Shown: positions 4,429-9,218 of the stretch, piece after piece | Layout of the letters: each line of letters opens with the position of its first letter | Position numbering within the stretch: position 1 is the stretch's first letter | Origin: Candidatus Alcyoniella australis | GTDB lineage: Bacteria > Lernaellota > Lernaellaia > JAVCCG01 > Alcyoniellaceae | Assembly: GCA_030765605.1 (NCBI GenBank) | Contig: JAVCCG010000017.1 | Location: forward strand, 1 to 35,581 | DNA length: 35,581 nt | Reading direction: 5' to 3' | Notes under the pieces: model-generated | What the model was told of the DNA's origin: nothing | Database searches by the model: none | Seen by the model: only the letters and a program-made list of their open reading frames with translations | Program-made: the position numbers and the translations under genes

Positions 4429-4457
4429 TTGCCGGGTGCCGGGCGATGTTATATATC
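4429..4457 (+). promoter_or_regulatory. Candidate promoter of the GMP synthase subunit gene
   Basis: TTGCCG (4429-4434), a 17-bp spacer and TATATC (4452-4457) lie about 45 bp before the ATG at 4501. Four of six bases match at each box. It is plausible but not strong. Confidence 0.35.
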
Positions 4458-4500
4458 ACTCAGACATTGCAAAAATAACCAGCGGGTCAGGAGGCAGATA

Positions 4501-5466
4501 ATGGCGGTGCAGGAGATCACATTGGAGCAGCTCGACGTCGAGCAGTTCATCCAGCGGCAGGTGGAGCAGATCAGGCAGGCGGTGGGTGAGGGGTTGGCGG
4601 TCAACGCCCTGTCCGGCGGTGTGGACTCGGCCGTGGTAACGATGATCGGTCACCGCGCGCTGGGCGATCGGCTCAAGACCTACTTCATCGAGAACGGCAT
4701 CATGCGCGCGGGCGAGGCGCAACAGATCAAGGATTGGTTCGACGAGCTGGGAGTGCCGATCGAGATCGTCGACTCCAAGGACGAGTTCTTCGCCGCGCTC
4801 AAGGGCAAGCTCGACCCCGAGCTCAAGCGCGAGGCGATTACCCAGACCTTTTACAAGAGCGTGTTCGGCAGATTGGTGCGCGAGTCCGGCGCCCACCACC
4901 TGCTGCAAGGGACCAACTACACAGACGTCGAGGAGACCGTGGCCGGCATCAAGCGTCAGCACAACATCCTCGAGCAGCTGGGCATCGATACCGAGCAGGA
5001 GTTCGGCTACAAGGTGATCGAGCCGATCATCGAGCTGCGCAAGACCGGCGTGCGTCTGGTGGGCAAGGCCCTGGGTTTGCCCGAGGTGATCTACACCCGG
5101 CCGCCGTTCCCCGGACCGGCCCTGGCCACGCGGGTGATCGGCGAGGTCACACCAGAGCGCGTGGAGACCGTGCGCCAGGCCACGCTGGTCGTCGAGCAGG
5201 AGCTGGCCGACTCCGGCGCATTCCAGTACCTGGCCGTGCTGCACGAGGATCGGGTCACCGGCATTCGCCAGGGTAAGCGCGACTTCGGATTGCAGATCGA
5301 GGTGCGCTGCTGGGAGAGCACCGACGCGGTGGTGGCCCAGCCGACCGACGTCCCGTTCGCCAAGCTGCGCACCATTGCCGACCGCATCTGCCAAGAGGTG
5401 CCCGGCGTGGTCAGCGTGACCTACAACATCGCCTCCAAGCCGCCGTCCACAATCGAGGTGGTCTGA
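4501..5466 (+). CDS. guaA: GMP synthase ATP-pyrophosphatase subunit (no amidotransferase domain)
   Basis: A 321-residue protein equivalent to the C-terminal two-thirds of GuaA. It has the PP-loop SGGVDS (about residues 38-43), which binds ATP and adenylates XMP, then the dimerisation domain with RPPFPGPALATRVIGEV and the C-terminal KPPSTIEVV, which replaces the usual KPPGTIEWE-like end. The glutamine amidotransferase domain found at the N-terminus of bacterial GuaA is absent. The length fits archaeal-type two-subunit GMP synthase (GuaAb), so a separate amidotransferase or direct use of ammonia is implied; none is in the window. The start is well placed: AGGAGG followed by ATG at 4501. A clean terminator follows. 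Family is certain; whether this is the main GMP synthase of the cell or a paralogue is not known. Confidence 0.88.
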   Translation: MAVQEITLEQLDVEQFIQRQVEQIRQAVGEGLAVNALSGGVDSAVVTMIGHRALGDRLKTYFIENGIMRAGEAQQIKDWFDELGVPIEIVDSKDEFFAALKGKLDPELKREAITQTFYKSVFGRLVRESGAHHLLQGTNYTDVEETVAGIKRQHNILEQLGIDTEQEFGYKVIEPIIELRKTGVRLVGKALGLPEVIYTRPPFPGPALATRVIGEVTPERVETVRQATLVVEQELADSGAFQYLAVLHEDRVTGIRQGKRDFGLQIEVRCWESTDAVVAQPTDVPFAKLRTIADRICQEVPGVVSVTYNIASKPPSTIEVV

Positions 5467-5489: not shown

Positions 5490-5521
5490 CGGGCCGCTCC
5501 TATCCGGGCGGCCCGTTTTTT
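5490..5521 (+). terminator. Rho-independent terminator after the GMP synthase gene
   Basis: An 8-bp GC stem (CGGGCCGC at 5490-5497 with GCGGCCCG at 5508-5515) and a 10-nt loop are followed by six Ts. The T tract runs into the tspO stop codon on the other strand. Confidence 0.85.
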
Positions 5522-5999
5522 AGTTGAGCAGGTATAGCGCGCTGTTGAGCAGGGATGCGAACCCGACCCACAGCACGTAGGGAACCAGCAGTGCGGCGGC
5601 CATCGGCGAAACTTTCTTGAACGCCGAGTGAGTCCAGGCCAGTAATCCCAGCAGCAGCAGGATCACCACCAGTCCCAGGAACACGTCGTGTAGGCCGAAA
5701 AACATCGGCGACCAGATCGCGTTGAGCCCGAGCTGAATCGCGAACAGCTTCAGCGCTCGCCGCACCGTCGGTCGCTCGATCCCTTGACGCCAGACCAGAT
5801 AGGCGGCAATTGCCATTAAAAGATACAGCGTGGTCCAGACTGGACCGAACAGCCAGTTGGGCGGGTTAAACCACGGCTTGTTCAGACCCGCATACCAAGT
5901 GGGGATCGACGGAACCGTAAACAGCGCGCCCAACACGCCGGTCGCCTGGCAGATCAGAATCAAACCAAGCAGCTTGGCCGTCTCGCGCAATACGCGCAT
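5520..5999 (-). CDS. tspO: TspO/MBR family membrane protein
   Basis: A 159-residue protein with five hydrophobic segments and the family hallmarks: WYAGLNKPWFNPPNWLFGPV and then WTTLY in the first third, and a NAIWSPMFFGLHD segment in the middle. TspO proteins are tryptophan-rich integral membrane proteins that bind porphyrins and some sterols; in bacteria they are linked to tetrapyrrole and stress responses. The ATG at 5999 overlaps by one base the stop codon of the upstream selenoprotein (TGATG), which indicates translational coupling; a GTG one codon earlier is also possible. The pairing with a secreted selenium-dependent redox lipoprotein hints at a joint role in oxidative stress or tetrapyrrole handling, which is inference. 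Confidence 0.93.
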   Translation of the reverse strand: MRVLRETAKLLGLILICQATGVLGALFTVPSIPTWYAGLNKPWFNPPNWLFGPVWTTLYLLMAIAAYLVWRQGIERPTVRRALKLFAIQLGLNAIWSPMFFGLHDVFLGLVVILLLLGLLAWTHSAFKKVSPMAAALLVPYVLWVGFASLLNSALYLLN

Positions 6000-6553
6000 C
6001 ACTGGATTTGGCGGAGAGCGTCGAGCACCGTGGTATTGGCCGGGATGTCGGACATGCCCGAGCTGTAGTGCAGGTAGGTGATCGTGCCCTCGCTGTTGAT
6101 CACGAACAGCGCGGGCATCAACCCGAGCTTGAGCAGGCGGTACTGCTGGCCGTAGAGCTCGCCGAGCCTGGCGTCGGGATCGGGAATACCGACGTAGGGC
6201 AGCTTGTTCTCGGTCCAGAACTCGCGCATCTTTTCCGCGTCATGGCGCGCCACCACTGCGATTTGCGCGTTGGAGGCTTCGAACTTGGCGATCTCGTCTC
6301 GCATCTGACCCAGATGCTTGCGCGAATACGGTCAGCCGAAGCCGCGTAGAAACACCAGCACCAGCGGGCCGTCCTGTAGCAGGCCGCGCAAATCGACCTG
6401 TTCGCCGTCGAATGTCTGCGCCTGAAAATCGGGCGCACTCTGGCCTTTGTTGAGCATCGGTCCTCCACAAGCACTGGCGCTCAGCGCCAGCACGATCAGC
6501 CCTATGAGCAATGTTCCCAGATACAGCCGCGTGCTTCGTAGTGTTTTCCCCAT
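5999..6553 (-). CDS. Peroxiredoxin-like (AhpC/TSA) lipoprotein with selenocysteine at residue 74
   Basis: A 184-residue reading frame if the in-frame TGA at 6334-6332 is read as selenocysteine. The N-terminus is a hydrophobic signal with a lipobox-like end (SASAC, Cys 29), so it should be a membrane-anchored periplasmic lipoprotein. The AhpC/TSA thioredoxin fold starts at about residue 38 (APDFQAQTFDGEQVDLRGL). The segment FLRGFG-U-PYSRKH matches the FxRGxxCPxCRxxL active site, with the TGA exactly at the catalytic Cys. Coding in the same frame continues for 110 residues of recognisable redoxin sequence (DARLGELYGQQY, MPALFVINSEG). A stem-loop right after the TGA fits a bacterial SECIS. No other Cys follows, so it would act as a one-Sec enzyme. 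The ATG at 6553 has GGGAGG upstream. It is coupled to tspO. A standard caller would split or truncate it. Confidence 0.88.
6301..6317 (-). promoter_or_regulatory. Putative bacterial SECIS element
   Basis: On the minus strand, GCATCTG-GGT-CAGATGC forms a perfect 7-bp stem with a G-starting loop. It begins 14 nt after the TGA, so the apical loop lies about 21 nt downstream, within the spacing known for bacterial SECIS elements, which also require a G near the loop start. Confidence 0.8.
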
Positions 6554-6704: not shown

Positions 6705-8882
6705 TCAAGCGGGGTCCGGATCGTCGTCGTCGTCGGGCCAGACCTCGTCGTCGTCATCATCGTCGTCGTAGCCCGTCCAGGGATCCCGATAGGGCAGGTC
6801 GATGGCCAGCACGTCGTCCCATGAGTCCATGTCAGTGACAACCAGCGCGGCCTCGGAGATCGAGTAGATGTAATCGCCGATTACCACTGAGCGCAGTACG
6901 TTGTTGTTGCCGTACAGCGGATCGGAGCCCGTTTCGCCGGTGAAGTCCGAATGGTCCACGTCGTGCAGGTGGGTGAAGCCTTGTTCCACCGTGGCGCGGT
7001 AGATCATTAATGCGTGGTAGTCTTCGCCATACTTGAGATCGTCGTCATCATCGTCGTCGCCATAGCCCCACTCACTGTAGGGGAAGGCCAGCAGGTCTTT
7101 GCTCGCGTAGTACAGGAACGCCTTGTGATCCTGGTTGGCCAGGGATCGACCATCGTAATTGCCGATGTTCTCCTGGTGCAAAATCGTCGGCGCGGCGAAG
7201 TCGCTGACGTCGAACAGTACGAGTTTGACGCCCCAGGTGTCGCCCCACTGATCGCCCTGCAGGCCGAAGCCCAGCAGGTAGTCCTCGCCAAAGGGATGCA
7301 AGTAGGCCGAGTAGCCGGGCATCTGCAATTCGCCGACCACGGCCGGAGCCGTCGGATCGCTCATGTCCAGGGTGAACAGCGGATCGATCTGCTCGAATGT
7401 CACCAGGAATCCGCGATCACCCAGGAAGCGCGCCGACCTGATCTCCTCGCCCGGCGCGATGTCGCGCAACGCGCCGACGACCGTCAACTGCATCGAGCCC
7501 TGCTCGAGCACGAACACGTGGTTGGCCTGTTCCCCGCTCCAGTTACCGGTGGTGGTGGCGATCCGCAGGTAGTCCTGGTACTCGCTCATCGAGAACTGAT
7601 TAAGCACCCAGCCCTCGACCTCGCCCGTGCCCACGTAGATCGCCTCGGAGGCGGTGGAGGCGATGTCGAACTTGTGGATCAACGAGCTGTCGGGGTCGTA
7701 GTCCTCGAACCAGTCCCAGGCCTGCCACGGATCGGTGGTCACGTACAGCGCGCTGGTCGAGGCATAGACGATCGAGCCGTCGGCGATCAGCCCGATGTCG
7801 TGCTGCTTGGCCGCCGGATCCTTCATATCGATGGAGATCACGCTCAGCGAGTCGGTTCCCTGGGAGTTGCTCGGTCGATAGAGGTCGGTGCAGTCGCTGA
7901 GTGTGCCCGAACTGATCTGCTCGCCCTGGGGCGTGTGCACGATTTGGTACAGCCGCGGCATCCAGGATTCGAGTTCGCTCGATTCGATCAGCTCGCGGTT
8001 CTCGCGCTCGAGTGCGTCGTAGGCCGCGTTGATCGCGTCGAAGTCGCAGTTTTCCCAATATTCGTCGCAGTACGGCGAGGGGTCGATCCAGGTCTTGTAG
8101 TCCGGCCCCTTGTCGCTGGACCAGAGGGCAACGCGCACGCCGTTGTCAACGCGGCGCGAACTCAGGTAGTAGCCCTCGACGTAGTCCTCGCGCACCAACT
8201 GCATTGCGGCGGGGTCGGAGATATCGACCACCGTAAGTTTGAGTACCTCCCGCGGCAGCTGTTCAACGTCCAGGTCGGGCCAAACGTCGTCGGGGAGCTG
8301 ACTGCGGCCTACAGCGGAGAAGACCAGCACGTAGTCGGCATAGAGGAACATCTCCGTGGCCACGCCCGTGATCTCGATTCGGCCCAGCTCGGTGGTCTGG
8401 TCCGCGGGCTTGGGATCGAACACCAGCAAATGGCCGTTGGTCACCAGCACCAGCCGCTCGCCATCGGTCTTGACCAGGTCGGCCTCGTCGACTCCCTCCT
8501 CCTGCACGTTGGTGTCGGAGTGGTCGTCGTCATCGCGCCCCGCGTCGTCGTCGTCGCCCGTCGAGTCGTCGTCGCCCGAGTCGTCGTCGCCCGAGTCGTC
8601 GTCAGCCGAGTCGTCGTCGCCGAGTTCGTCGTCGTCATCGCCGTACCAGCCGAACGGGTCGTCACGGTACTCGTCGATGATTCGTTCCATCTGTTCGATC
8701 TCGAGCGCGCGCAGATAGCTTAGCGCCTCGTTGCAGCTCTCCATGCGGTGCAGGTTGTTCGACGTTTGGGCGGTCTCGCCGCCGCCATTGCCGTCGCCCT
8801 GGCATGAGACGAAGATCAGCGGCGCAACGAGCAGCGCCAGCCCGAACGCGATCATCGATATAATTCTGAGCCTGGTTCCCAT
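6705..8882 (-). CDS. Secreted beta-propeller domain lipoprotein with Asp-rich linkers
   Basis: The 725-residue protein starts at ATG 8882 after GGGGG; a longer frame to 8987 lacks a signal at its start. The N-terminus is a lipoprotein signal (hydrophobic segment, then FVSC). It is followed by a helical stretch and an acidic linker of GDDDS repeats (about residues 80-125). Then comes the marker NVQEEGVDEADLVKTDGERL of the secreted Beta_propel family, and about 550 residues of repeated beta-strand blades, interrupted by further runs of Asp near residue 625 and at the C-terminus. Asp-rich runs may bind calcium and keep the domain away from the membrane. The enzymatic or binding role of the family is unknown. 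It is divergent from the FadL gene across a region with a Fur-box match. Confidence 0.9.
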   Translation of the reverse strand: MGTRLRIISMIAFGLALLVAPLIFVSCQGDGNGGGETAQTSNNLHRMESCNEALSYLRALEIEQMERIIDEYRDDPFGWYGDDDDELGDDDSADDDSGDDDSGDDDSTGDDDDAGRDDDDHSDTNVQEEGVDEADLVKTDGERLVLVTNGHLLVFDPKPADQTTELGRIEITGVATEMFLYADYVLVFSAVGRSQLPDDVWPDLDVEQLPREVLKLTVVDISDPAAMQLVREDYVEGYYLSSRRVDNGVRVALWSSDKGPDYKTWIDPSPYCDEYWENCDFDAINAAYDALERENRELIESSELESWMPRLYQIVHTPQGEQISSGTLSDCTDLYRPSNSQGTDSLSVISIDMKDPAAKQHDIGLIADGSIVYASTSALYVTTDPWQAWDWFEDYDPDSSLIHKFDIASTASEAIYVGTGEVEGWVLNQFSMSEYQDYLRIATTTGNWSGEQANHVFVLEQGSMQLTVVGALRDIAPGEEIRSARFLGDRGFLVTFEQIDPLFTLDMSDPTAPAVVGELQMPGYSAYLHPFGEDYLLGFGLQGDQWGDTWGVKLVLFDVSDFAAPTILHQENIGNYDGRSLANQDHKAFLYYASKDLLAFPYSEWGYGDDDDDDDLKYGEDYHALMIYRATVEQGFTHLHDVDHSDFTGETGSDPLYGNNNVLRSVVIGDYIYSISEAALVVTDMDSWDDVLAIDLPYRDPWTGYDDDDDDDEVWPDDDDDPDPA
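8563..8622. repeat. In-frame 15-bp tandem repeat, four units, encoding GDDDS
   Basis: Units start at 8563, 8578, 8593 and 8608 (plus-strand unit gagtcgtcgtcgccc with single changes). Each encodes a five-residue acidic block of the lipoprotein linker, so gain or loss of a unit would change only the linker length. Confidence 0.85.
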
Positions 8883-9218
8883 TGCATCCCCCGCATCGAC
8901 CGATTGAAAATTCCGCCTCGACCATTGTTCAGTGGCAAAAAATATACCAATTGCCGCCACCGCGTCTGGTCGAAACACCCGCGACAATGATAATCAATAT
9001 TTACCCCGTTCAATAGAAATATTAATTCGTTAGGCAGCTTGATCGAATCCCGGTTCGTCTGATGAAAAACTGATATGCAGCGCGGAAAACCGTCGACAGC
9101 GGGCCGAGGTAATGGGTGAAATTGCAAAGGGACCGCAACTCTGATAATGATTTATTATTGACGGGTTTCGGTTACAGACGACAAAAAAAATTTAATACCC
9201 CAGGCCAGGAGGCTCGAA
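8883..9218. promoter_or_regulatory. Divergent AT-rich intergenic region (336 bp)
   Basis: The region separates the beta-propeller lipoprotein from the FadL-family gene and is clearly AT-richer than its flanks. It holds a Fur-box match at 8983-9001, a partial second one at about 9143-9159, a TTGACG at 9158-9163 and a TTTAAT at 9191-9196 that are too far apart to form one promoter, and the AGGAGG ribosome site of the FadL gene. No gene was seen. Confidence 0.6.
8983..9001. promoter_or_regulatory. Putative Fur box
   Basis: GACAATGATAATCAATATT matches 16 of 19 positions of the classical Fur consensus GATAATGATAATCATTATC, including the whole core AATGATAATCA. It is 101 bp upstream of the beta-propeller start and 218 bp upstream of the FadL start. 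Iron control of either gene is inferred. Confidence 0.6.

Follow-up and report, generated by a model that had tools for sequence, protein, structure and literature searches.

A peroxiredoxin-like protein of Candidatus Alcyoniella australis with a probable UGA-encoded selenocysteine

Organization of the locus

The sequence studied, hereafter the window, was the 35,581-nucleotide stretch formed by positions 1 to 35,581 of contig JAVCCG010000017.1 (assembly GCA_030765605.1) from the 98% complete genome of Candidatus Alcyoniella australis. Its minus strand contains a frame of 184 codons (6553–5999) with a sole internal in-frame TGA at 6334–6332, for which a standard ORF caller yields two frames. 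The first-pass annotation had described two half-genes in the same frame separated only by this TGA at residue 74, and re-reading of the frame bore this out. The features of the locus are as follows.

5999–6553, minus strand: proposed complete selenoprotein frame, 184 aa, predicted AhpC/TSA fold; ATG at 6553, stop TGA at 6001–5999
6467–6553, minus strand: putative lipoprotein signal MGKTLRSTRLYLGTLLIGLIVLALSASAC, with lipid-acceptor Cys29 (codon 6469–6467), recognized by inspection
6332–6334, minus strand: proposed selenocysteine (Sec) codon 74, UGA, in the motif R70-G-F-G-U74-P-Y-S77
6323–6325, minus strand: codon 77, Ser (TCG), replacing the second Cys of UxxC; Cys in 87/87 other members, Ala in the homologue L152
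6301–6317, minus strand: SECIS-like hairpin; 5' arm 6317–6311 GCATCTG, loop 6310–6308 GGT, 3' arm 6307–6301 CAGATGC
5520–5999, minus strand: TspO/MBR gene (PF03073, 5.9e-51), ATG at 5999–5997

The joined frame matched the Pfam family AhpC-TSA (PF00578) at 72.6 bits, with a cut-off of 26, over residues 37–160, a region that spans the TGA; Redoxin (PF08534) also matched the joined protein across it. Homology, a criterion for selenoproteins, was found on both sides of the in-frame UGA, the immediate context of which is FLRGFG-U-PYSRKHLG. The 110 codons after the TGA are intact and include the conserved motifs IPDP, LYGQQ, and MSDIP. Besides the Sec site, the only other position with a cysteine is Cys29, the putative lipid site.

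The product of the gene upstream (6705–8987, minus strand) belongs to Beta_propel (PF09826) and contains long runs rich in Asp (DDDDDD). Elsewhere in the window, positions 4429–5466 (plus strand) encode a stand-alone protein of the GMP synthase C-terminal/ATP-PPase type, with no glutaminase domain in frame and a score of 290.6 bits against TIGR00884, below the cut-off of 338.75.

Conservation of the UGA codon among homologues

No relative was found by a single-sequence scan of genome contigs. When 84,980 species genomes were scanned with a profile (alignment-based), 197 loci were obtained, of which the best 80 were kept. With the scan loci limited to these 80, TGA occupied the site in all 87 homologues first aligned across it and Cys in none; the motif forms in this set were UPFC (70), UPYC (14), and UPHC (3). 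Some redundancy is present: L062 and L111 seem to be one gene, and two or three further pairs are near-identical. The records of the 87 homologues belong to Chloroflexota, Calditrichota/KSB1, Thermodesulfobacteriota, Spirochaetota, Bacillota, Actinomycetota, Myxococcota, and others, and relatives with TGA in each were found in seven genomes of another phylum.

A homologue from a plasmid record of Thermomicrobium roseum also has TGA at the site, as do three sequences added by a wider sample (L152, L153, and L154). L152, with the motif UPYA, is the closest relative of the window gene at 53% identity. In total, TGA was found at the site in all 91 aligned homologues (the 87, T. roseum, and L152–L154), with neither another residue nor another stop in the Sec clade; the scan loci being the best 80 of 197, rare variants with Cys may exist. 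Only deeper relatives had Cys at the site, namely a paralogue in the same genome (L008, GCPICR) and Rhizobium and Pantoea proteins. The other six genomes of the same class contained no orthologue of the window gene (best E-value 2e-9, none at 1e-13), and a search for a phage homologue found none. Judging from these alignments, with the best 80 of the 197 scan loci included, the peroxiredoxin-like family appears to be widespread and to use Sec throughout, with no Cys orthologue found.

The first-pass annotation had warned that automatic annotation would split such a gene, and this proved true elsewhere. On the T. roseum plasmid (NC_011961.1, L148), the first part of the Sec homologue is annotated as a 'hypothetical protein' (1998–2126); this CDS terminates exactly at the Sec TGA, and the remainder has no listed gene.

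Selenocysteine machinery and other selenoproteins

All four components of the Sec machinery were found in the genome: selA on the same contig (C17:65731–67068, 580 bits), selB (C25, 356 bits), the tRNA-Sec gene selC with anticodon TCA (C19, 76 bits), and selD (386 bits). The selD gene itself contains an in-frame TGA (SHGAGUACK; L019, G000:C133:56714–57634), and an AhpC-type peroxiredoxin gene (L001, G000:C35:59510–59908) has TGA at the peroxidatic position (FTFVUPTE). Within the class, selB was detected in six of seven genomes including that of Ca. Alcyoniella australis, five of them over the cut-off, and each of the 11 further genomes tested that carry a homologue had it, 10 of them above the family cut-off.

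Further peroxiredoxin-like frames with TGA were also observed. One genome of the same class (G005) encodes a distant peroxiredoxin-like protein (L044, 1501–1815) with TGA in FYRGGWUPYC and an apparent lipoprotein leader, LAAMLAAACARG. Four peroxiredoxin-like matches with in-frame TGA occur in genome G044, and a frame on its contig C27 (L036), where the TGA is followed by PNS (UPNS), is a second UxxS-type case.

Candidate SECIS hairpin

The perfect 7-bp stem with a GGT loop, reported in the first-pass annotation at the distance known for bacterial SECIS elements, was confirmed. The hairpin GCAUCUG-GGU-CAGAUGC contains seven Watson-Crick pairs, its stem beginning 14 nt and its loop 21 nt after the UGA. 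It fits the bacterial SECIS model of a 3–9 nt loop, a stem of 4–16 bp, a G at loop position 1 or 2, 16–37 nt spacing, and MFE of −7.5 or lower (PMC13188914), with an MFE of −7.8 kcal/mol for the hairpin and −11.8 for a 43-nt stretch. Comparable stems (at least seven Watson-Crick pairs, a G at loop position 1 or 2, similar placement) follow 0.5% of in-frame positions in the other window genes, while recoding this peptide synonymously produces one in 7.5% of cases. The fold z-score of the hairpin stretch was only −0.8, with no separation of its MFE from shuffles, and Rfam gave no SECIS match at the site. Taken alone, the window hairpin is modest evidence for Sec.

The main hairpin of the family is a different one, with an AGUU loop 25 nt after the UGA and a stem at 24–28/33–37 (numbering starts at the U of UGA). 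This is the best model-conforming hairpin in 82 of 89 sequences (scan loci again the best 80 of 197). In this register, 412 of 430 cells are paired, above all 500 shuffles, and compensatory changes are seen, two pairs being replaced by A-U and U-A in a Bacillota group and G-C by A-U in L104. An AGUUG loop at 16 nt forms the best hairpin in three members of the FLRGF group (including L070 and L077). The register of the window hairpin was also considered as a family-wide SECIS and rejected, because it showed no covariation and 427 of 602 cells paired, below shuffles.

The AGUU hairpin cannot be formed by the window gene, in which the GGU hairpin at 21 nt takes its place. In the same register, L152 contains a 5-bp hairpin (CAUCU-AGGAC-AGAUG), which differs from that of the window by two synonymous changes, which affect the loop and the base that closes it. 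A strong hairpin in the window register was observed in a distant peroxiredoxin-like selenoprotein, L035, as well. These comparisons suggest a shift of the recoding signal within the family.

Active site and predicted fold

The second Cys of the motif, present in the other members, is missing in the window protein (UPYS) and in L152 (UPYA). In a tree computed with the Sec site masked, these two formed a clade (97/99) to which neither the UPxC group nor T. roseum/L154 belonged. By sequence, the UPYS and UPYA proteins are thus a supported subclade with a predicted Sec-only site.

The protein fits the AhpC/TSA superfamily both in its PF00578 score, which is over the gathering cut-off, and in its thioredoxin-like predicted fold. 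The AlphaFold model has a mean pLDDT of 87.9, with a core above 90, and residue 74 lies just ahead of the helix 75–86. The best PDB folds found by Foldseek were Bcp1, BcpB, and AhpE (3drn, 5epf, and 1xvw; TM-score about 0.7–0.9). This profile match and fold, together with the AhpC-type gene on C35 of the same genome, would agree with a canonical peroxiredoxin in which Sec stands for the peroxidatic Cys. Such an assignment is nevertheless unlikely: in HMM alignments to Bcp/PrxQ structures, U74 falls on the Thr/Ser of T/SxxC and Ser77 on the peroxidatic-Cys column, the same column positions are seen in the alignment against L034, and the peroxiredoxin motif PxxxT/SxxC(U) is absent from the window protein. 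These column positions point to a peroxiredoxin-like rather than a canonical peroxiredoxin protein.

Thioredoxins and glutathione peroxidases carry their nucleophile at the first position of the motif. The alignments and the model suggest that Sec occupies this thioredoxin/glutathione peroxidase-type position and not the canonical peroxiredoxin one; predicted Sec74 is then the first position of a thioredoxin-like UxxC-type motif. The first-pass annotation had placed the TGA at the catalytic Cys of FxRGxxCPxC. This holds if the catalytic Cys is taken as the nucleophile of a thioredoxin-like CxxC, but not for the peroxidatic-Cys column, which is Ser77, and the motif is UPYS, not UPxC.

Leader peptide and overlap with TspO

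The N-terminal extension contains, by inspection, the lipobox pattern ALSASAC-GG after an n-region and an h-region, and a ribosome-binding-like site, GGGAGGG, lies just 5' of the ATG at 6553. All homologues inspected start without such a leader, at a Met equivalent to an internal MLNKG of the window protein, and the ATG of this internal start has GGAGGA just 5' of it. An internal start could therefore give a cytosolic form like that of the relatives, with the lipoprotein leader unused. Exclusive use of this start is improbable, however: the extra N-terminal codons continue the same frame, have a ribosome-binding-like site of their own, and encode a basic n-region as well as a hydrophobic stretch and a lipobox with Cys-Gly-Gly, while GGAGGA is also simply two Gly codons.

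The ATG of the TspO gene overlaps the stop codon of the proposed selenoprotein gene (TGATG), which suggests translational coupling of the two. As the TspO start lies on the A of this stop, a failure to insert Sec could reduce translation of TspO as well. Conserved linkage with TspO was rejected, as no adjoining TspO was found at any of the 87 homologues in the flanking DNA examined.

Comparison with known selenoproteins

Sec had been said to have precedent in AhpC/TSA-like proteins, and it is indeed catalogued there in both UxxC and UxxS forms (PMC13188914, PMC9312934). Peroxiredoxin-like thiol:disulfide oxidoreductase selenoproteins (PF00578, UxxC/UxxU) are already listed (PMC13188914, PMC9312934); likened by description, they share with the window protein the AhpC/TSA assignment and Sec as the first residue of a CxxC-type motif. 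The window protein differs in being UxxS, in its lipoprotein-type leader, and in the placement of the SECIS.

The same sources list a UxxS peroxiredoxin-like family (cd02970/AhpC-TSA_2) from an Olavius algarvensis symbiont (PMC13188914, PMC9312934), which likewise has Sec, Ser three residues on, and no in-motif resolving Cys. In contrast to this family, the window protein matches PF00578 and PF08534, its closest relatives carry UPYA or UPxC, and AhpC-TSA_2 (PF13911) is absent from its Pfam matches at E <= 0.001. Its best NCBIfam match (residues 39–135) was the SelL-related redox protein NF040769, at 73.8 bits, below the cut-off of 120 bits.

Sec-AhpC/PrxU (TxxU) belongs to the same superfamily and is also encoded in this genome (C35), but its Sec is at the peroxidatic position, while that of the window protein is placed three residues closer to the N-terminus. 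In Bcp/PrxQ and 1-Cys AhpE, Cys chemistry takes place at the column that Ser77 occupies in the window protein. What is unusual in the window protein is the combination of a Sec-only site, a relocated SECIS, and a lipoprotein-type leader that probably makes it a lipoprotein.

Proposed function and implications

The locus most probably encodes one intact selenoprotein with an AhpC/TSA-type fold in which UGA codon 74 is read as Sec (probability about 0.95). The observation is decisive because the TGA is conserved in homologues and the Sec machinery is present; Sec insertion at codon 74 itself is inferred from these sequence data, and the Sec reading given in the first-pass annotation is strongly supported. 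Neither of the two outcomes named there as refuting it, a genome lacking sel genes or homologues with a true stop at this place, was seen in the genome and the aligned homologues.

General reassignment of UGA, or its reading as Cys, Trp, or another residue, might be thought of since distant family members, including the GCPICR paralogue, have Cys, but it is very improbable given that UGA is the stop at the gene's own end and that tRNA-Sec, SelB, and a SECIS-like hairpin are present. A pseudogene or sequencing error, with a nonsense mutation at the active-site codon, would explain the two frames of the ORF caller but is effectively excluded by the shared TGA column across many phyla, the intact downstream codons, and the full machinery.

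In the proposed selenoprotein, SelB and tRNA-Sec would decode UGA 74 as Sec, aided by the hairpin, while UGA 6001–5999 would act as the real stop. The product would have a thioredoxin-like AhpC/TSA fold with Sec at the N-terminal end of the active-site helix. The nascent protein would probably be exported and receive a lipid at Cys29; the resulting enzyme would be anchored in the membrane, with Sec74 as its only free redox residue. The Sec74 selenolate would likely reduce a hydroperoxide, or a disulfide, with formation of a selenenic acid or a mixed selenosulfide. Since Ser77 replaces the in-motif Cys, an external thiol would be needed to resolve this intermediate, in a 1-Sec cycle like those of glutathione peroxidases or 1-Cys AhpE. 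We give even odds to a history in which the UPYS/UPYA Sec-only subclade lost its resolving Cys, its SECIS moved to a position overlapping the usual one, and the enzyme was relocated in this organism to the envelope as a lipoprotein.

A gene that ordinary annotation splits is thus rescued as one frame. It belongs to a broad peroxiredoxin-like clade, spread over many phyla, with Sec at the site and no Cys counterpart found, so annotation may be wrong for many of its members, as it is for the T. roseum entry. With its Sec-only site and probable membrane anchor, the window variant would be a natural case of a selenoenzyme working without a resolving Cys. The gene would also be a case for how SECIS hairpins move inside coding sequence: if the proposed shift is true, the recoding signal was displaced within the coding sequence while Sec was kept.
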